A stretch of DNA of 64,000 nucleotides, taken from Methylobacter tundripaludum. Its GTDB lineage: Bacteria; Pseudomonadota; Gammaproteobacteria; Methylococcales; Methylomonadaceae. The notes under the pieces are model-generated. The model had not been told where the DNA came from. It searched no databases and worked only from the letters and a program-made list of their open reading frames with translations. The position numbers were made by a program, and so were the translations under genes. This document shows positions 159 through 24,912 of this stretch, one piece after another (the stretch's first letter is position 1; every line of letters begins with the position of its first letter). The DNA lies in NCBI RefSeq assembly GCF_002934365.1, contig NZ_PTIY01000007.1, positions 1-64,000 on the forward strand, in the 5' to 3' direction.

Positions 159-437
159 ATGCATATTTCATTAACACCAGAACTCGAAGCCATCATCAAA
201 GAAAAAGTCACTTCCGGTTTATATAACAATGCTAGCGAAGTAATCCGTGAAGCACTGAGGTTTATGAAAACCAACGAAGAGCTGATCAATCAGATGAAGC
301 GGGATCACTTGCGGTCGAAGCTGGCGGAGGGCGAACGTGATCTTGTTGACGGTCAATATACTGAACTCAAACCGGAACAGCTAAGCGATCATTTTCAGCT
401 GATAAAGAATCGCGCAATCGACCGTATTAATCGATAA
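159..437 (+). CDS. Orphan ParD-family antitoxin
   Basis: A 92-residue protein of the ParD/CopG antitoxin family. The N-terminal part (ISLTPELEAIIKEKV, then SGLYNNASEVIREALRFM) is the ribbon-helix-helix DNA-binding segment that represses its own operon. The acidic C-terminal tail would normally wrap a ParE toxin. The start is well supported by AGGAGG seven to eight bases upstream of ATG. No ParE toxin follows: the next 206 bases hold no gene, and then comes the large SIR2 protein. It resembles the intact ParD at 36623-36883 in the same window, especially in the SGLY..ASEVIR.ALR stretch. It may be an unpaired remnant, or an antitoxin acting on a toxin encoded elsewhere. The family call is firm; the present function is unknown. 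Confidence 0.85.
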   Translation: MHISLTPELEAIIKEKVTSGLYNNASEVIREALRFMKTNEELINQMKRDHLRSKLAEGERDLVDGQYTELKPEQLSDHFQLIKNRAIDRINR

Positions 438-643: not shown

Positions 644-3600
644 ATGTCGAAGAAGGAAGAGTCATTATGCCAAAAAAGGCAGGAAATACTTGAGACCATT
701 CGTAAAGAGTCAAGTTATAGACCAATAGTGCCATTTCTTGGTGCTGGTATTTCGGTTTCTGCGGGTTTTCCTACGATTAGATTTGTTATCCAATATCTTG
801 CGAAAGTGGATTTTGCTATTCAATATGGCGTATTCAAAGATCGTTTCCCAAAGATCAAAGAAGATCATCAGTGGGCATTGGATAACTATAGCCGGCATCC
901 GAGTAAATATTTAGAAGATTTTGGCTGGCCTAATCTAGGACAGCTCAACGCTGATATTTGGGAATGGCTTGAACGACCGCTGAATGAAAAAAATCAAAGT
1001 GATGATATTAAGAAGCCTTACAAAAATGGAGTAGGGCGGAAAAAAATTTGGGAGGTTAGTAATGAAGCAGTACGGCTCGCCATAAGTGATTATAAGGAAC
1101 GCGAGCAACGTGGTGAAAATTTAGGTAACAAAAAAATACTCCTTGATCTTCTCGCTTATGACGTGGGTATAGATAAAAAAATTAAAAAAATATCTGAAGC
1201 AGTTCCGAATATCTTAGAAGGAACAAAACCTCTTATAAATAAATCACTTGCGTTACGCGATCATCAACAGGCAATAGTTCAATGGACTTTGCGCAAAGAG
1301 CTGACGGGACGCGAAAGTGGTGCGAATCAAGCCATGTTGAAAGAATGGTTGCAATGGAAATCTCATTATCACTATGGTAATGAGTCCTCTGATGAACTGG
1401 AACCAAGTCTTTTATATGGTGACTGGGAAATGCTTTTGGACAAACTTTGCGAAGGTAATTTTAATCTCATTGATGCACTTTTCACCTCGTTCGAAAATGG
1501 GCTTAATCCAACCCTATCACACCGTTACCTTGCGTTCCTTCAGCCAAAGTTAGGGATACCGCTTTTACTTACAACCAATTTCGATTCCTTGCTTGAGCGT
1601 GCTTTTTATCAGGAAGGTATTCCGCCGAAAGTGTTTGATGTACACAAAGATGCTGAACTCCCAAATCAAGCTTTGGTTCATCGGCAACTTTCACTGCTTA
1701 AGCTTCATGGCTCTGCCTACGGACTTAGATTAGGTGAGCGGCTAAAATATACGCTCGAAATTGATGCCCGTAATAATGCTTTAGGCTACATACCGAAAGA
1801 TGCGCTAATACTGGTCATGGGTTTTAACGGTTCTGAGCGACGAATTATGCAAATACTCCAAGCATTTGTTCAGGAAAGAGAGCGTGGATCAGATAAACCT
1901 CGACTTATCTGGATTCAGGGGCCAAGTGAACCAGGCCCACTATTTAATGAATTGATTGCCGATTCGGGCAACAGCGTGCAACGTCTTAACGTTAGACACA
2001 TAGACACCTTTCTCCAAGAGCTGTATTTACACATTACCTGCAATAGTTACCAATCTACCTCTAGGAGCTATTCAACTATTTCCAGTAGACCCTTGACGAC
2101 AGGGCTGAAAACTTACCTCGCGAATACAAAAAAAGAAAAAGAGGAGAAGCGCCGTCCAGTCCATCTTTGTATTGGCGAAATCGATAATGGCAAACCTTCT
2201 TCGAACTGGTCTTCCCTTGCTGGGATGGCTTTTGTCAATTCGCTTGATAATGGATACACGGTAATCTGGATTGATCTTGAAAATCATCACACAGTGGAAG
2301 GTATCATTGCGGAATTTTTCAATCGTGTTCGTCTAATTGATCCTCAAATTCCATCATGTGCGATTACCAATATGGATGTCAACCGTGAAGCTGCAATATC
2401 TAAGGCGATTGAGAGAATCCACGATGTATTTAAAAGGGGACGCTACGTTCTTGTCCTCGACATGGTGGAATCATTTGGTCGACCGCAGATGGTGCATCAT
2501 GGTATCCCTTCATCGTATGAAAAACGTCTTGAAGGTCGTTCAAAAGGTTTATGGCGTTTTCTCAAGGAGCTGCTACACATGGGAAAAAGGATGCCAGCCC
2601 CTAATTACTGGGATTCTTATATTATCGTGACCGCCGACAAGCCGCGCCTTAGACATCATTTGAGGTCAATCGATAACACAACTCTGTTGAAGTCATGCAA
2701 ATCATACAAATACGCTTACCTGCTGATAAAGTCACTCCAACGCATTGGTGAAGAACAAAAATTACAACATAAACATATTTGCCTCCACCACCAAAAGAAT
2801 GAAGAATACAAAGATCTCATTTCCGAAAAAAATTTAGTACCAGAACCTGACCCATCAACCAATCTATCCGCACATTGGCGATATAGTGAGGCAAATCTGC
2901 CTGATAATTCGTTGAAACGTGCCAAAAATGTCCTTTTTCTACTCAATGCGCTTAGGTCAGAAGACAATGCTGAAGAATCCAAGCTTAAAAAACTCAGTGA
3001 AAAAACTACTACAGAAGCGTTTATCTGTCTCCTCTCGATTTTCCGTCGCCCCCGTTCTCTGCCATTGCTGCGTTCAATCGTAGAACGCTGGGGATTGCGA
3101 AAAATTGGAGAGAACTTACTTGATGATGAAGTTTCTGCAAAAACCCATGCTGCAATAAATGAATTATTACAGTTAATTGTCACCATTGGTAGTCCTGTAG
3201 GTAGTGTCGTATCACAGAATCATGAAGGTGGAAGTGTTTGGCTTTTCAGAGAAGTTTACGAGGCTATATACGATGCACTTACCGAACAGCTACATCTTAA
3301 AGCCTGGATAGATGCTTGGAAACTTGAAATCCCCTGTAATAAACCATCAAGTTCGGCGGCGATTATGGATGGTGTTTTAAGTATAACTTGGCACCTGTTT
3401 GCCGCTCGCGCTTATTACGTTGATATATTCCTACCTACTCATGATATACGATCATTCTGGGAGTATTTGTATCACCGCGTTTCCGCTATCCGAATCATTA
3501 CTTTGCTCATCACTATCATTGAAAAAGACTTCGAAAAAGGCGATAAGACAACCATTTGGAACGATTTGAGCATACATTGCAAAGAACTTTCTTCAGTTTG

Positions 3601-5632
3601 TGAAACTTTTCCAGTTGGTGATTCCGAAAGATTCAAACCCGATGATGATAATCCCTTTGAATGGTATGTTTGGGTACTAGGCATTTTTGACCCAATTAAG
3701 AGAAACACAAAGAAAATTTCTAGTGCACAAGAATTAGTAGAAAATTTTAAACTTCTTCGCAAAAACTCCTTGGACACACTTTTGATGGCTCTCAAGAAAA
3801 ATAAACTACTCTTTCGTATCGAAGCAGCCCCTGATAGCATTCTGGCATGGTCGGATCAGTTTCTGGAGTTTGAGTTGACTAATATGAAAGGAATTAGCGG
3901 GCACACTAGCGAATGTCCAATAGAAATTAAAGAGACGCTTGACGAACTTAGTAAACTATTTGAGAAGTTAAAATATCAAGCACTGCTATCGAAAATGGAT
4001 TACAAGAGCATTTTGAGCAAATACGGATCAGAATCCAACTTTAAGAAAGAAAAGAACAACTTTAATAAAATTGTTAAGGAATTAATTAAACTAGAAAAAA
4101 ATTTAAAGGATAAGGGGGAAACAGCTACAAATAAAGATAATAAAAACTTTTCCGAAAAGTTTCAAGGAGCTAAGGAGCAGCTTAATAATTTGTTAAATAT
4201 TGCGCGATGCCTTGTTCATCCCGGCGATCATCGTGCCGAAGAGCATACTCAGTTTATTCTTGACAAGCTGGATGACATAAAAGGAAGAACAACAAATACA
4301 GATATTGAGAGTTGGGTAAAAAGGAAACAACTTGTGGCACATGAACTGCGTGGTCGATCTTGGTTTATAAAGTGGCCGTTTTGGCACCCCCTACTTGAAC
4401 GTAAAGATTCCGACTCACGAATAATGGACGACAAGCTAAGAAAGGCCGAAATAGATTCTGTCCTTTTTGAAGACCTACTTCGTGAAACCACTAAAACAAA
4501 TGATGAAGATACAAAGAATCGATCCAACGCACTTACCATCAGAGTACGAGCGTTGTATTTGCGGGGACATTTCCCGCAAGCTCATCATTTTCTCGATCTC
4601 GCATCAACGGGACTGTTTCCTGAGCGAATCGACCACTGGTCATTGATCAGTGTAGTGCATATTATACGAGCTGAGCTACTTGCAATTAGTGCACATGAAC
4701 ACTACTTCTCTCTATCTAAACGCGATCAGGTACGCGAAAAGCTGAAGCTTGATGGTACGAGTACGCAAGATCAGAATAAACAGTTTAAAAAGTTACCTCG
4801 AAAATTCGCTGAACTAGCCAAAGAGCTACACCCCATCGCTGCCTCATCGCTAAAAAAAATCGAGCGTGCCGAACAAGAACTCCGTCATGCCGAGAAGTTG
4901 CTCCGTAACATGGCGCACCAAAATATTTGGCTCATTCGTATGGAATTTGGTTGGGCACAGATAAAAGTTGAGCGAATGCTTTTTGAAATAGAGTTACTGT
5001 TTTTGTCTTGGCAGTCATTAACAGTAACAGAATATCTCAAGAAAAGCGGTGAGCTTGAACAGGCAATTCTCGATACCATGCAACGACTTCGGAATGTTTT
5101 AGATATCATTCCTTACCAATCGCAAAAATGGACTGAGATGAATAATAACGAAATGGAGCCAGGTCAGGTGATGTTTCAAATCGAGTGCAGTGTCTATAAA
5201 CTATGGAGGCAATTGTTTGTGGTCGGGGCTTGTTATTCAAGCTTGTTGAATTGCCTATATATAGGGACTGGAAGTTTACACTATGATGAAGAAACAAGTC
5301 CCTTCGATATTGCAGATTTATTTATTCAGTATCTTTCCAGACTCGCTGAAAAACGCGACAACGCGATGAAATATCGTGAACAGTGGAAACTATGGTGTAT
5401 AGCGATGCGTTTTGATAGCTTCAGTGAAGCAGAAAACATGAAAACATTTTTTAACTCTGTTAGTTTACAAACCGAGGAAACATTCGCGGAAGCATTAAAG
5501 TCTATTTCATTTCGTGCAGCAGTCATCAAAGCGATGCGCAATGAATGTACGGATGAAAAAATTGAAATTATGTGGAATATACGAAGAGATAGGAGAAAGA
5601 CTCACAGAGCGGATTTAAGCGAATCGGCTTGA
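644..5632 (+). CDS. Giant SIR2-domain protein with STAND-like middle, probable anti-phage defence
   Basis: A 1662-residue protein. Residues about 25-400 form a SIR2-like NADase domain: GAGIS at 33-37, TTNFDSLLE near 309, KLHG near 353, and a GFNGSERRI segment near 393. These carry the Asn and His used for NAD binding and hydrolysis in bacterial defence SIR2 domains. Around residue 507 a glycine-rich GEIDNGKPSS segment sits where a STAND NTPase would have its Walker A motif, but it is degenerate. YVLVLDMVE near 600 looks like Walker B. The remaining thousand or so residues are largely helical and charged, as in the sensor solenoids of Avs/DSR-type proteins. In known systems, phage recognition triggers NAD depletion and cell death or arrest. 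Base composition is clearly more AT-rich than the purine genes next door, which suggests transfer. A weak AGGGG lies before ATG. The SIR2 assignment is firm; the STAND and sensor parts are inferred. Confidence 0.8.
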   Translation: MSKKEESLCQKRQEILETIRKESSYRPIVPFLGAGISVSAGFPTIRFVIQYLAKVDFAIQYGVFKDRFPKIKEDHQWALDNYSRHPSKYLEDFGWPNLGQLNADIWEWLERPLNEKNQSDDIKKPYKNGVGRKKIWEVSNEAVRLAISDYKEREQRGENLGNKKILLDLLAYDVGIDKKIKKISEAVPNILEGTKPLINKSLALRDHQQAIVQWTLRKELTGRESGANQAMLKEWLQWKSHYHYGNESSDELEPSLLYGDWEMLLDKLCEGNFNLIDALFTSFENGLNPTLSHRYLAFLQPKLGIPLLLTTNFDSLLERAFYQEGIPPKVFDVHKDAELPNQALVHRQLSLLKLHGSAYGLRLGERLKYTLEIDARNNALGYIPKDALILVMGFNGSERRIMQILQAFVQERERGSDKPRLIWIQGPSEPGPLFNELIADSGNSVQRLNVRHIDTFLQELYLHITCNSYQSTSRSYSTISSRPLTTGLKTYLANTKKEKEEKRRPVHLCIGEIDNGKPSSNWSSLAGMAFVNSLDNGYTVIWIDLENHHTVEGIIAEFFNRVRLIDPQIPSCAITNMDVNREAAISKAIERIHDVFKRGRYVLVLDMVESFGRPQMVHHGIPSSYEKRLEGRSKGLWRFLKELLHMGKRMPAPNYWDSYIIVTADKPRLRHHLRSIDNTTLLKSCKSYKYAYLLIKSLQRIGEEQKLQHKHICLHHQKNEEYKDLISEKNLVPEPDPSTNLSAHWRYSEANLPDNSLKRAKNVLFLLNALRSEDNAEESKLKKLSEKTTTEAFICLLSIFRRPRSLPLLRSIVERWGLRKIGENLLDDEVSAKTHAAINELLQLIVTIGSPVGSVVSQNHEGGSVWLFREVYEAIYDALTEQLHLKAWIDAWKLEIPCNKPSSSAAIMDGVLSITWHLFAARAYYVDIFLPTHDIRSFWEYLYHRVSAIRIITLLITIIEKDFEKGDKTTIWNDLSIHCKELSSVCETFPVGDSERFKPDDDNPFEWYVWVLGIFDPIKRNTKKISSAQELVENFKLLRKNSLDTLLMALKKNKLLFRIEAAPDSILAWSDQFLEFELTNMKGISGHTSECPIEIKETLDELSKLFEKLKYQALLSKMDYKSILSKYGSESNFKKEKNNFNKIVKELIKLEKNLKDKGETATNKDNKNFSEKFQGAKEQLNNLLNIARCLVHPGDHRAEEHTQFILDKLDDIKGRTTNTDIESWVKRKQLVAHELRGRSWFIKWPFWHPLLERKDSDSRIMDDKLRKAEIDSVLFEDLLRETTKTNDEDTKNRSNALTIRVRALYLRGHFPQAHHFLDLASTGLFPERIDHWSLISVVHIIRAELLAISAHEHYFSLSKRDQVREKLKLDGTSTQDQNKQFKKLPRKFAELAKELHPIAASSLKKIERAEQELRHAEKLLRNMAHQNIWLIRMEFGWAQIKVERMLFEIELLFLSWQSLTVTEYLKKSGELEQAILDTMQRLRNVLDIIPYQSQKWTEMNNNEMEPGQVMFQIECSVYKLWRQLFVVGACYSSLLNCLYIGTGSLHYDEETSPFDIADLFIQYLSRLAEKRDNAMKYREQWKLWCIAMRFDSFSEAENMKTFFNSVSLQTEETFAEALKSISFRAAVIKAMRNECTDEKIEIMWNIRRDRRKTHRADLSESA

Positions 5633-5649: not shown

Positions 5650-5680
5650 AGCCGGACGGGGCAACATGCCCCGCCGGCTG
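5650..5680. terminator. GC-rich hairpin between convergent genes
   Basis: AGCCGG-A-CGGGGC pairs with GCCCCGCCGGCT around the loop AACAT, with a single bulged A. It sits between the convergent SIR2 gene and purK, the usual place for a bidirectional terminator. There is no clear T tract on either side, so the role is inferred from position and stem strength. Confidence 0.45.
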
Positions 5681-5700
5681 TAAAGTTATTCAAAAAACAT

Positions 5701-6795
5701 CTACGAATCATCAACTTGATCAGCCAGCGCGGCCAGTTTCTTGACCAATTCCGATAATTGTTCCCGGCTTTCCGCGCGCACCGTGGCATGCGCCACTTTC
5801 CGCCCTTTGCGCGGCGCTTTATCGTAAAGATGCAAATGCGCATGGGGAATTGCCAACAGTTCTTCAGTCTTAGGCAGTCCGCCGATAAAGTTGACCATGG
5901 CCGCGTTGCCTACCGGCGCTGTTGAGCCTAACGGCAGATCCAGGATCGCCCGCAGGTGATTTTCAAACTGGCTGGTTTCCGCGCCTTCGATCGTCCAGTG
6001 GCCGGAGTTATGCACCCGTGGCGCAAACTCGTTGGCAACCAGATGGCCGTCCATTTCAAACAGTTCCAAGGCCAGTACACCGACATAATCCAGCTCCTCC
6101 AACAAGCGGGAGACATAGCTTTCCGCCTGTTGTTGCATCGGATCGTCGGCACGGCATTCGGAAACGCGCAGTATGCCGCCGCGATGCAGGTTTTCCGATA
6201 ACGGATAGAAGACAATCTCCCCTGAAACACTGCGCACGGCGATGATCGACACTTCGCGGTTAAACGGCACGAAGGCTTCAACAACAGCCGGTACGCCTTG
6301 CAACAGCTCCCAGGCCGATTTTAAATCGTCGGCCGATTTGAGCAGCGACTGGCCTTTGCCGTCGTAGCCCTGGGTGCGGCTTTTCAAAATGGCGGGATAG
6401 CAGAGGGTGGTCATCGCCTGTTCCAGGCTTTCAAGGCTGTCCACCGCCGCATAAGCCGGAGTGGGGATGTCGATGTCGTGGAAAAAGGTTTTTTCAAGCA
6501 AGCGGTCCTGGGCAATGGCCAGGGCTTTCGGGGCCGGATGCACTTGGGTGTGGGAGGCCAGAAACTCCGCGACTTCAGCCGGAACATTCTCGAATTCGTA
6601 AGTGACCACATCGGCGCGTTCCGCCAGCTGCGCCAATAATTTCGGATCGTTGTAATCGCCGATCAAGGGCTCGCCCAGCTTGTTGGCGCAGGCATCGGCG
6701 GAGGGATCGAGAAAAATAAATTCCAATCCTAATGGCGTACCCGCCAGCGCTATCATTCTGGCCAGCTGGCCTGCGCCCAATATGCCCACTCTCAT
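5701..6795 (-). CDS. purK: N5-carboxyaminoimidazole ribonucleotide synthase PurK
   Basis: A 364-residue ATP-grasp enzyme that converts AIR, bicarbonate and ATP to N5-CAIR in de novo purine synthesis. The N terminus ([16 protein letters not shown]) is the PurK Rossmann-like start. The middle has the ATP-grasp lysine segment ([14 protein letters not shown]) and [16 protein letters not shown]. The C-terminal half has [29 protein letters not shown], the metal- and substrate-binding signature of the family. Length is typical. Its ATG overlaps the purE stop by four bases (ATGA), so purE and purK are translationally coupled and act on consecutive steps. Confidence 0.97.
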
Positions 6796-21404: not shown

Positions 21405-21435
21405 ACACTAGGAAACCTAATTTGACTCATTGCTT

Positions 21436-22428
21436 ATGGCTATCGCAAATCAAATAAAAGCTTTGTTAAAATCGCATGTTGATGGCGATGACGCTCTGTT
21501 TTTGTCTATTGCAATGCAGATGGCCGCTCAAGAGGCAAAGCAAGGGCATGGGAAATTCGCCAAAGAAATTCGGGATTTAATCGATGAGGCAAAATCTACT
21601 CGCCGGACGAATGATTTAACGCCAATACCTTTAGTCAAACCGAAAGGCGAACTTAGTAATTTACTGAATGTTTCATACCCCAAATTGCGTTTGGTTGACA
21701 TGGTGTTGTCTGCCAATATCGAAACCCGGCTACAAAGGCTGATTAAAGAACATAAACACGTTCAAAAATTGCGTTCTCATGGTTTAGCCCCACGTAAAAA
21801 ACTTTTGTTAATCGGTCCGCCAGGAACCGGAAAAACCTTGACGGCTTCTGTTTTAGCTGGCGAACTTGGCTTACCGCTGTTTATTGTCAGACTCGAAAGT
21901 CTAATGACAAAATACATGGGAGAGACAGCAGGCAAACTGCGTTTGATTTTTGACGCCATCCAGCAAACGCGTGGTGTTTATTTATTCGATGAGTTCGACA
22001 GCATTGGAGCTCAAAGAGGCAATACTAACGATGTTGGTGAAATACGACGGGTTCTCAATAGTTTCTTGCAGATGATCGAACAAGATACTTCCGATAGTCT
22101 GTTAATTGCAGCAACCAATCATTCAGAGATGCTTGATCACGCGTTGTTTCGACGCTTCGATGATCTGATCGAATATGATTTACCGGAAAAAAAAGAAATC
22201 GTCGCAGCCTTCAAGTCAAAACTGGCTGCATTTAAAACATCCAGAATTTTATGGACAAAAGTGACTGAAGCAGCGGATAAATTAAGTTATGGCGATATTA
22301 CTAGGGCTTGCGAAGATGCCATAAAAGACGCGATTATCCATAATAAAGAATTTGTCAGTCATTCAGACCTCATTCACTCAATAAAAGAGCGGTGTTTAAT
22401 CCGTCAGAAACAACAAGTAAACTCGTAA
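21436..22428 (+). CDS. ietA: AAA+ ATPase of an IetAS-type ATPase/protease pair
   Basis: A 330-residue AAA+ protein. A helical N-terminal part (1-90) is followed by the ATPase core: Walker A GPPGTGKT near 126-133, YMGETAGKLRLIF for pore-loop-like and helix elements, Walker B YLFDEFDSIG near 181, sensor 1 in LLIAATNHSEML, and the arginine pair in FRRFDDLIEYDLP. A small C-terminal helical lid follows. Its partner is a subtilisin that starts on the base after this stop codon. AAA plus subtilisin pairs of this layout are known as IetA/IetS, first described as a plasmid-exclusion and stability module and later reported as an anti-phage system. The ATG at 21436 is chosen over an upstream TTG. Symbol assigned by architecture, not by alignment. 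Confidence 0.85.
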   Translation: MAIANQIKALLKSHVDGDDALFLSIAMQMAAQEAKQGHGKFAKEIRDLIDEAKSTRRTNDLTPIPLVKPKGELSNLLNVSYPKLRLVDMVLSANIETRLQRLIKEHKHVQKLRSHGLAPRKKLLLIGPPGTGKTLTASVLAGELGLPLFIVRLESLMTKYMGETAGKLRLIFDAIQQTRGVYLFDEFDSIGAQRGNTNDVGEIRRVLNSFLQMIEQDTSDSLLIAATNHSEMLDHALFRRFDDLIEYDLPEKKEIVAAFKSKLAAFKTSRILWTKVTEAADKLSYGDITRACEDAIKDAIIHNKEFVSHSDLIHSIKERCLIRQKQQVNS

Positions 22429-24912
22429 ATGGCAGATAACAGCAAGGAACGCCTTCCTCATCTTTTAATAAAAAAGTTGGCCAGTACAGACACTTATACG
22501 AGGCCTCAAAAAGCTATTGTCCTACCTGGAATGCAACTCCCTCAAAGAGATCGGCAATTTCACGCCCAACAACTGCTTAATCAAATCGAACAAGTAAAAA
22601 CTCAACAAACTACCATTATTCAAGAACAAAAAGCGTTCGGTCTGGATGTCAATAATGGAATTTACCTAGCCTTTGAAAGCGAACCAGACTTCGAATTAAA
22701 GTTTAGCAGCCTGGAATTTCAGCCCAGCGGTATTGAGCTTTGTACAGTTAAAGGAGCAGATCACAAAACAATTGCCACCGTTTTTGTTCCAGAAGGAAAG
22801 CTCTCGCATTTTCTGAAGAAGATTTCACAATATCAGGAAGAAAACACACCCAAAAATAACCCCAAACACAAAGAGCTGGTAGAAAGTATTGCTGGTATTA
22901 AACTGGCTGCCTTGGATGCCCTCTGGACTGATGCTCCCGAATCATTGCCTAATATCGATGAATCGATCTGGTGGGAAGTTTGGTTACGTCATAGCGATAA
23001 CATCGACTACGAATCATTTCTTCGTGAACATGCCCCTCAACTAGAAATGAGGGTCGGCAAAGAATCAATACGATTTCTCGATAGAACTGTTGTTCTTGTT
23101 TATGGCACTAAGGAACAGATGAGCCGCTCTATTCACTTATTAGGCTCTATTGCTGAACTTAGAAAAGCTAAAGACACCGCCGATTTTTTTACCGGCATGG
23201 ATAGGCAAGATCAACATAATTGGATAAGCCAAACATTGAAGCAATTGACGCCCCCATCCAATGCATCCCCTTATATCTGTATCCTTGATACTGGGGTTAA
23301 TGAACAACACCCACTGTTAATACCAGTTGCTGACTCACCAGATATGCATACTTATACCCCGGTGTGGGGAACCGATGATCGCAATGGTCACGGTACTGCA
23401 ATGGCGGGATTATCCGCTTATGGCGACTTAACCGAAGTGTTGGCTTCCGCTTTACCCATACAGCTCACCCATCGTATTGAATCGGTAAAAATTACACCAT
23501 ATCCCGGCTTTCATGAAGATAAACGCTTATATGGTGCGATTACTCGTGAAAGTATCACACGAGTTGAAATCGAACCCAATCGGCAACGTATCTATTGCAT
23601 GGCGGTATCTGCCACTGATGATAGGGATAGGGGGCGACCTTCCTCTTGGTCGGCTGCTGTTGATGCGCTTGCATCGGGTTATGACGATGAACAACAGCGA
23701 TTGATTATTCTGTCTGCCGGCAACACGGCTCAAGCTTTTAGACACATGTATCCGAACAATAATCTGGCCGACGAGGTGCATGATCCGGGGCAATCATGGA
23801 ATGCATTAACAGTTGGAGGGTATACCGAAAAAGTCTGGCTTGATTCGGTAGAATATCCAGGTTGGTTGCCGATAGCTCCACTAGGAGATCTATCCCCATC
23901 CAGTTGCACTTCCATGGATTGGCAAAAAACCTGGCCCATAAAACCCGATATTGTTATGGAAGCAGGTAATATGGCTATCGATCCGATATACGGCAATGCC
24001 GACTATATTGATGATGCTCTACAATTATTGACTACAGGACATAAGTTTTTACTTGATAAACAACTGGTTTCATTCGGAGATACCAGCGCAGCAGCGGCAT
24101 TGGCTGCTCATTTGGCTGCGAAAGTACAAACCCACTATCCCGAGTACTGGCCGGAAACCATACGGGCATTAATGGTCCATTCTGCAAAATGGACAGATGC
24201 GATGAAAACAAGATTTGCCCCATTCAATACCAAAGACCAATACCGCCAATTACTGCGCTATTGTGGGTATGGCGTTCCCGATGAAGAAACGTTATTTTGG
24301 AGCAGTCGAAACGAATTGACACTAATTGCTCAGGATGCGTTACAGCCATATTTTAAAGATAAAAGCACAGTTAAAACCCGCGATATTAATTTACATAGCC
24401 TACCCTGGCCCACTGAAGTATTACGTGACTTACCAGCAAATACCCGCGTCGAAATGAAAGTAACCTTATCTTATTTTATCGAACCGAATCCCGGATCAAG
24501 AGGATGGGTAAACAAATACCGTTATGCATCCCACGGCTTACGTTTTGATGTGCGTCGATCACTTGAAAGCCTGGAACAATTTAAACAACGCATCAATCAA
24601 CTTGCGCGTGATGAAGAATATAACAGTCAAGCACAGCCCGAAAGTGGCGAATGGAAATTGGGCGAAAAATTGCGTAGCTTGGGTTCCATTCATTCAGATA
24701 CATGGCATGGTTCCGCGGCGGAACTTGCAGAACGTGGTTATATTGCCGTTTATCCTGTGTTGGGCTGGTGGAAAGAGCGAGCAAATCTGGATCGATGGGG
24801 CAAACAAGCTCGCTATACATTGATTGTCAGTATTAAGACACCGGGAGTTGAAACAGATATTTACACGCCAGTTGAAATTAAAAATCAATCAGTTATATCT
24901 TTGGCTGTGTGA
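22429..24912 (+). CDS. ietS: Subtilisin-like serine protease of an IetAS-type pair
   Basis: An 827-residue cytosolic S8 protease without a signal peptide. The catalytic triad is intact: Asp in CILDTGVNEQHPLL (about 287), His in DRNGHGTAMAGL (about 321), and Ser in GDTSAAAALAAHLAA (about 553). The N-terminal 270 residues are charged and helical and may bind the AAA partner or an inhibitor; the C-terminal 200 residues are rich in beta strands. The ATG follows the AAA stop directly (TAAATG), so the two are coupled. In IetAS systems the ATPase is thought to control a toxic protease. The pair is AT-richer than the trp genes next to it and is flanked by a dead oxidase gene, which fits horizontal gain. 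What triggers it is unknown. Confidence 0.88.
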   Translation: MADNSKERLPHLLIKKLASTDTYTRPQKAIVLPGMQLPQRDRQFHAQQLLNQIEQVKTQQTTIIQEQKAFGLDVNNGIYLAFESEPDFELKFSSLEFQPSGIELCTVKGADHKTIATVFVPEGKLSHFLKKISQYQEENTPKNNPKHKELVESIAGIKLAALDALWTDAPESLPNIDESIWWEVWLRHSDNIDYESFLREHAPQLEMRVGKESIRFLDRTVVLVYGTKEQMSRSIHLLGSIAELRKAKDTADFFTGMDRQDQHNWISQTLKQLTPPSNASPYICILDTGVNEQHPLLIPVADSPDMHTYTPVWGTDDRNGHGTAMAGLSAYGDLTEVLASALPIQLTHRIESVKITPYPGFHEDKRLYGAITRESITRVEIEPNRQRIYCMAVSATDDRDRGRPSSWSAAVDALASGYDDEQQRLIILSAGNTAQAFRHMYPNNNLADEVHDPGQSWNALTVGGYTEKVWLDSVEYPGWLPIAPLGDLSPSSCTSMDWQKTWPIKPDIVMEAGNMAIDPIYGNADYIDDALQLLTTGHKFLLDKQLVSFGDTSAAAALAAHLAAKVQTHYPEYWPETIRALMVHSAKWTDAMKTRFAPFNTKDQYRQLLRYCGYGVPDEETLFWSSRNELTLIAQDALQPYFKDKSTVKTRDINLHSLPWPTEVLRDLPANTRVEMKVTLSYFIEPNPGSRGWVNKYRYASHGLRFDVRRSLESLEQFKQRINQLARDEEYNSQAQPESGEWKLGEKLRSLGSIHSDTWHGSAAELAERGYIAVYPVLGWWKERANLDRWGKQARYTLIVSIKTPGVETDIYTPVEIKNQSVISLAV

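Follow-up and report, generated by a model that had tools for sequence, protein, structure and literature searches.

A giant single-gene SIR2 protein of Methylobacter tundripaludum, a candidate immune receptor with a STAND-like region apparently devoid of a P-loop

A single gene of Methylobacter tundripaludum encodes a very large, rare protein that resembles an alarm against viruses. The protein represents a new, narrow family in which a SIR2 domain is combined with a STAND-like part carrying a dead P-loop and with a putative TPR part, and on balance we favour its being a solo immune receptor of STAND architecture in methane-oxidising gammaproteobacteria, whose arm would sense, whose core would relay and whose SIR2 domain would cleave NAD+. 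In the window, i.e., the whole stretch of 64,000 nucleotides that was analysed, the gene forms one uninterrupted open reading frame of 1662 codons running from an ATG to position 5632, exactly as the first-pass annotation had read it. The frame is real: an independent copy in another genome (G650), 42% identical in protein sequence, is open over 1512 codons, and pN was lower than pS in all 20 comparisons when our gene was set segment by segment against the G650 and G537 copies, which together put the frame beyond chance. As pS is near saturation in most of these comparisons, they demonstrate constraint, not its strength. The GC content of the gene is 40.4%, versus 48.4% for the window. Its features are as follows.

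644..5632, + strand: giant SIR2 gene, 1662 aa, a single gene with no conserved partner (the relatives in G650 and G537 have other neighbours)
644..2068, + strand: SIR2 NADase-type effector domain, residues 1-475 (Pfam SIR2_2; PDB profile matches; VIA-align)
989..1243, + strand: variable insertion within the SIR2 domain, residues 116-200 (from the alignment; mostly absent from the G650 protein)
1577..1579, + strand: codon of Asn312 (in TTNFD), the predicted catalytic Asn; aligns with TTNFD of the SPARSA SIR2 and is equivalent by motif to N133 of DSR2
1706..1708, + strand: codon of His355 (in KLHG), the predicted catalytic His; aligns with HG of the SPARSA SIR2 and is equivalent by motif to H171 of DSR2
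2159..2803, + strand: putative STAND/AAA+-type core without a P-loop, residues 506-720 (alpha-beta order in both low-confidence models; VIA-align at 511-720; hhalign negative)
2198..2224, + strand: S-x-x-W-[AS]-[ST]-L-[AT]-G, residues 519-527, occupying the Walker A position, with Trp522 in place of the lysine (3 of 3 copies)
2444..2470, + strand: Walker B-like strand YVLVLDMVE, residues 601-609, with Asp606 conserved and [DE] at +3 (3 of 3 copies)
3011..3298, + strand: LSIFRRPR ... EGGxxWLFRE element, residues 790-885, putatively a winged-helix-like part (invariant stretches in three copies; no profile match)
4211..5266, + strand: TPR-like alpha-solenoid, the presumed sensor, residues 1190-1541 (VIA-align on a low-confidence model)

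By its sequence, the N-terminal domain can be assigned with confidence to the SIR2 NADase type. The three motifs that had been called intact, GAGIS, TTNFD and KLHG, do stand at residues 33, 310 and 353, and Pfam SIR2_2 (PF13289), the only family above cut-off, matches residues 307 to 428 with an E value of 2.2e-9 (38 bits versus a curated cut-off of 24.5). PADLOC, run at E values up to 1, returned seven models, all inside residues 275 to 478, namely, models of PDC-S65, SIR2-Argonaute and ThsA; no NCBIfam model came near its cut-off over the whole protein, and PHROGs gave no match. Compared with solved structures, the N-terminal profile matched ThsA, the SPARSA SIR2 and FAM118B. VIA-align on the low-confidence model of residues 1 to 475 found SPARSA (Z 7.5), ThsA (7.1) and DSR2 (6.5), although Z values below 8 may reflect a common arrangement, and its other matches there were to NAD-binding or related folds (deoxyhypusine synthase, phosphoheptose isomerase, and DNPH1). 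Asn312 and His355 are invariant in all three copies that span the SIR2 core; the corresponding residues of DSR2, N133 and H171, are required there according to the available part of the DSR2 study (PMC11087589). The core is also the slowest part of the protein, with 83% identity to G537 and 60% to G650, versus 45 to 69% and 30 to 43%, respectively, for the last third, as expected for an effector compared with a sensor. The fastest segments include residues 1101 to 1260, residues 1501 to 1662, and the insertion at 116 to 200, a family-specific stretch between GAGIS and TTNFD that has 46% identity to G537, versus 83% for the SIR2 core.

For the region downstream, the first-pass annotation had proposed a STAND NTPase with a broken Walker A motif, GEIDNGKPSS, and of this the loss of the P-loop held up, while the choice of remnant did not. 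The canonical Walker A motif Gx4GK[ST] is absent at its expected place from all three copies covering this region. GEIDNGKPSS was rejected as a Walker A motif one residue off, its glycine and lysine being absent from the two other covering copies and the segment varying in length. What occupies the Walker A position in the alignment is SSNWSSLAG in our protein (W being Trp522) and SKSWATLTG and STSWASLAG in the other two; because this conserved S-x-x-W element aligns where GxxGxGK[ST]xLA belongs, a placement based on motif order and spacing and not on a profile match, the supposedly broken motif appears fully replaced throughout the family. The element is followed by a strand ending in IDLENH and then by YVLxLD, which resembles a Walker B motif and has an acid at +3. 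The Walker B motif that had been picked out, VLVLDMVE, is indeed present, at residue 602 (VLVLDMVES), within a strand that reads YVL[VAI]LD and ends in Asp in 3 of 3 copies. Trp522 and Asp606 lie 84 residues apart (95 and 85 for the same pair in the other two copies); by the same measurement, the distance from Lys to Asp is 67 to 84 residues in seven NACHT/NB-ARC proteins, and one nSTAND3 protein out of two had a distance of 49, while the other yielded no motif. We are confident, as far as sequences can tell, that the P-loop has been lost across the family, the phosphate-binding loop having apparently been replaced in full and not changed at a single residue.

The fold in which this element resides was approached by profiles and by structure prediction. 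For residues 480 to 1662, no match was obtained to any PADLOC model, to any PDB sequence, or, at E values up to 10, to any Pfam family above its cut-off. Pfam at E values up to 10 showed no similarity to NB-ARC, NACHT, nSTAND1, or nSTAND3, and no match came from hhalign when the core was compared with small custom STAND sets (18 of 21 nSTAND1 matches, three weak rows being omitted, plus 4 NACHT, 2 NB-ARC, and 2 nSTAND3); the core together with the following part reached an hhalign probability of 0.7 against NACHT, and the nSTAND3 search was dominated by ordinary ATPases. A profile search for STAND families, which had been suggested as a check, thus found none in Pfam, PADLOC, or hhalign. Two AlphaFold2 models were obtained, with mean pLDDT values of 45.9 (3 rows) and 41.8 (5 rows), so that the structural matches are weak. 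For query residues 1 to 818, VIA-align of the structures listed by Foldseek yielded mainly two groups of matches, namely, SIR2 or NAD-binding folds at 1 to 475 and cores of the ORC/NLR/Dark type at approximately 511 to 720. The latter comprised ORC2, Cdc6, Sr35, ZAR1, NRC4, Dark, TnsC, and MuB with Z values of 5.9 to 7.4 (again below 8) in a model with a pLDDT of 42 in which the winged helix was not seen, whereas two SAMD9 entries aligned across both parts, residues 10 to 719, with a Z value of 6.0 and an rmsd of 16 on the low-confidence model. Avs proteins were absent among the VIA-align matches listed, an absence that excludes nothing, and Foldseek alone found no match at E < 0.001 for residues 1 to 818. 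The STAND-like middle of the first-pass annotation therefore retains structural matches at 511 to 720 and lacks a profile match; signs of an NTPase-type core past residue 450 are present, albeit in low-confidence models. With moderate confidence at best, we regard residues 506 to 720 as a STAND-type core. The long helical remainder that had been described from the sequence reappears in the predicted secondary structure, which is, at low confidence, mostly helical from about residue 680 onward. For residues 480 to 1662, the matches from Foldseek alone were TPR or scaffold proteins, and those from VIA-align were mainly helical solenoids, TPRs among them, with residues 1190 to 1541 as their centre (TPR of LGN, Z 15.0; TPR of SAMD9, Z 12.8), although helical repeats reach high Z values easily.

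The family is patchy. Among 311 genomes of the order, nine matched at E values of 0.001 or better, of which four share the SIR2 core only and five, our genome (G000) included, hold family members: G650 and G537 have N- and C-terminal parts, G664 has an N-terminal remnant, and G591 has 34 residues at a contig edge. The phylum-level search of 398 genomes returned six, namely, our own and five with the SIR2 core only. A profile of residues 480 to 1662 recovered our protein, G537, G650, and one chance match in the order; the search of 369 class genomes gave, besides our own, one weak match with stops and no credible relative. Two candidates were dismissed as chance matches: G829 (E 0.0045), which has internal stops, and G604 (E 0.001), by eye a chemotaxis-type coiled coil. 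When a two-row profile was run against contigs of 84,980 species, one locus was found, in a Methylococcaceae metagenome assembly (CAIYRS010000074.1), which matches residues 1 to 1651. Phage records and viral contigs gave no match, and the plasmid search gave one record, SIR2-only. In their assemblies, three of the five copies in the order are broken or partial. The G537 copy is split between the GPS and PGPLF motifs, and parts of a group II intron lie at both contig ends, antisense to the gene:

L027:10026-10141 and L028:66-139, strand opposite to the gene: group II intron inside the G537 copy (RF02003, RF00029)

A mere assembly error was rejected as the cause of the split in view of these antisense parts, so the copy is broken, and, since they lie on the opposite strand, splicing cannot rescue it.

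Support for a role in defence comes, indirectly, from the location of the gene, whose flanks are as follows.

159..437, + strand: ParD-type antitoxin ORF, 92 aa, left of the SIR2 gene (Pfam PF03693, E 1.8e-8)
5701..6795, - strand: purK-like gene, which we take to be purK, right border of the hotspot (together with the next gene, matched at DNA level in 21 of 23 genomes of the genus)

The ParD gene was rejected as a partner of the SIR2 gene, being absent beside it in G537 and G650; the left flank presumably also carries the end of an IS30-type transposase. On the right, the SIR2 gene stops 69 bases before the end of the purK-like gene. In the two remaining genus genomes, this gene and the next gave one short-repeat match only and nothing, respectively. 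Between the SIR2 gene and purK lies a GC-rich palindrome (window positions 5651 to 5681), a REP- or terminator-like element of which copies of about 28 bases are scattered through many genus genomes. Thirteen purK-side regions were collected from sister species, one of which is only 274 bases long, leaving 12 usable; in five of these, an antiporter-type gene (Proton_antipo_M, E 3.6e-58) stands on the far side, and other genes stand there in the remaining seven. The five antiporter-purK intervals contain the following.

L119: SIR2 plus HerA (PADLOC, E 1.4e-104 and 4.6e-144)
L120: one SIR2-NACHT gene of 1167 aa (Pfam SIR2_2, 3.6e-15; NACHT, 7.4e-8)
L121: Mrr/ResIII enzyme plus others (mREase_IV, 5.1e-54)
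L122: PLD protein (PDC-S05, 7.8e-15)
L130: empty, about 0.3 kb

The interval is thus a defence hotspot of the genus, holding SIR2-HerA, SIR2-NACHT, restriction or PLD cargo or nothing. In our genome, 233 bases separate the end of the antiporter-gene match from the edge of another contig (C34), position 1 of the window lies at the edge of its own contig (C7), and the two edges share no 14-mer. The SIR2 gene most probably occupies this hotspot too, a placement that is half inferred because the left side of the hotspot lies on C34. The SIR2-NACHT gene of the sister species G019 (L120:6063-9563, - strand) has an intact GGGKT, and PADLOC matched it only partially, with ThsA and LmuA.

The proposal of a new SIR2 defence subtype stands insofar as the family is narrow and no orthologue was found to be assigned to a named system; the defence role is supported indirectly, known defence genes occupying the same hotspot. 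ThsA, SPARSA, and SIR2-HerA, which are multi-gene systems, share the SIR2 NADase fold and motifs with our protein and have other sensors. The SIR2-NACHT protein of G019 likewise joins SIR2 and STAND in one gene, occupies the same hotspot, and has a similar Walker B context, but it has an intact P-loop and a clear NACHT domain, and the similarity is confined to 55 SIR2 residues (E 0.015). The plan had been called closer to that of Avs5 (AVAST type 5, SIR2-nSTAND3), and in outline it is: according to the available sections of the Avs5 study (PMC12931631), Avs5 too is a single gene with an N-terminal SIR2 domain, followed by a central STAND-type part and C-terminal repeats, to which the putative core and the TPR-like solenoid of our protein would correspond. 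Yet Avs5 has nSTAND3 (PF20720) and a Walker A motif, GPAGSGKT in PaAvs5, where changing its Gly or Lys abolished defence (PMC12931631, same sections), whereas our protein, at 1662 aa, lacks both and has the SIR2 insertion; judged by sequence, it appears to share the Avs5 plan but is not an Avs5. The nearest logic, by analogy, may be that of the SAMD9 family of animals and some bacteria, for which the available text (PMC5445408) describes a SIR2-like domain, a STAND-like core without the Walker A lysine, and a TPR array. The low-confidence models agree with this likeness, one match spanning residues 10 to 719 and another lying in the TPRs, although what they show is a structural likeness only. 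Moreover, SAMD9 has GGT/S for GKT/S, with Lys changed to Gly and a possible stand-in residue proposed (PMC5445408, same text), while our protein has Trp at the lysine position, and SAMD9 has AlbA/tRNase and OB domains, families with no Pfam match in our protein at E values up to 1. In open-licence PMC text, we recognised no SIR2-STAND protein of bacterial defence without Walker A, except in the SAMD9 family paper (some bacteria).

By hotspot and domain content, the protein is most likely a solo abortive-infection sensor. In the resting state, the long arm of helices at the C terminus would, with the STAND-like core, keep the SIR2 domain inactive; binding of a phage component by the arm would cause the protein to rearrange or to oligomerise through the core, the SIR2 domain (Asn312/His355) would then cleave NAD+, and the infected cell would stop growing or die before phage release. 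The switch would be driven by binding and by protein-protein contacts, without exchange or hydrolysis of ATP. A binding-driven switch is probable because the P-loop is gone from the whole family, and one without ATP turnover would be expected from Avs5 as the SIR2-STAND precedent, where the P-loop is essential, together with SAMD9, which does without the Walker A lysine. More tentatively, and with some doubt, we suggest that the receptor has abandoned the nucleotide switch: S-x-x-W-[AS]-[ST]-L-[AT]-G would replace Walker A, the fold would serve purely as a scaffold, and binding of the target would by itself free the SIR2 NADase.

Other explanations read the middle of the protein differently. 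It might have no STAND ancestry, in which case the protein would be a sensor resembling DSR1 and DSR2, with SIR2 first, a purely structural middle, and a helical arm that binds a phage protein directly. The large helical remainder, with its predicted long helical C terminus, the same catalytic Asn and His, and the missing STAND profile match would all agree with this, and DSR2 works through SIR2, middle, and C-terminal domains, the word "NTPase" being absent from the available part of its description (PMC11087589). Unlike DSR1 and DSR2, our protein has a predicted alpha-beta core after SIR2 that includes a Walker B-like strand and whose matches at 511 to 720 are consistently of the ORC/NLR/Dark type, and there was no DSR model among the seven PADLOC matches at E values up to 1, which holds only for the DSR models in that library; we consider this explanation unlikely, though it carries real weight. 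Less probable still is a deviant nucleotide-binding STAND protein in which another residue replaces the Walker A lysine and ATP or ADP still gates the switch. Conservation of Asp606 and of the acid at +3 in 3 of 3 copies would fit such a site, as would the case of SAMD9, where Gly has taken the place of Lys and another residue may stand in for it (PMC5445408, available text), but here the glycines are lost as well, the loop differs in length between copies, and PaAvs5 did not tolerate changes to its Walker A Gly or Lys (PMC12931631, available sections).

That the gene has nothing to do with defence, being a regulator of stress or cell death or decaying selfish cargo of the hotspot, appears very improbable. 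The broken or partial state of three of the five copies could be taken that way; against it stand two intact copies that are 42% identical with pN below pS throughout, the defence-like cargo of the hotspot in sister species, and the fact that gene turnover is usual for defence genes. We therefore retain the solo receptor with a STAND-like, P-loop-free core as the preferred reading. In plant, animal, and bacterial immunity alike, it is still debated whether a STAND receptor must exchange ATP before it can fire. A naturally occurring family of this architecture, its P-loop wholly replaced and a conserved residue at the lysine position, makes that question testable. Should the nucleotide-free receptor be borne out, it would be a bacterial parallel to the lysine-less SAMD9, of separate or common source. 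The analysis also adds the antiporter gene-purK hotspot of methane oxidisers, in which several SIR2 systems come and go.

Three further loci are recorded here. The second SIR2_2 protein of the genome (L134:5348-6211, - strand; 287 aa, E 2.6e-6), in which TTNFD and KLHG are absent by eye, is encoded directly next to genes resembling nifH and nifD. Near the G664 remnant, L029:54-1229 and 1440-2513 encode proteins that match DUF4062 (E 4.3e-29) and TIR-STALD (E 3.6e-8 and 5.4e-6); a recent study (PMC13174449, available part) presents DUF4062 as a TIR-like NADase belonging to a defence system. Finally, positions 21430 to 24912 of the window carry an IetAS anti-phage system, consisting of the AAA ATPase IetA (E 1.7e-79) and the subtilisin-like protease IetS (E 1.6e-46).
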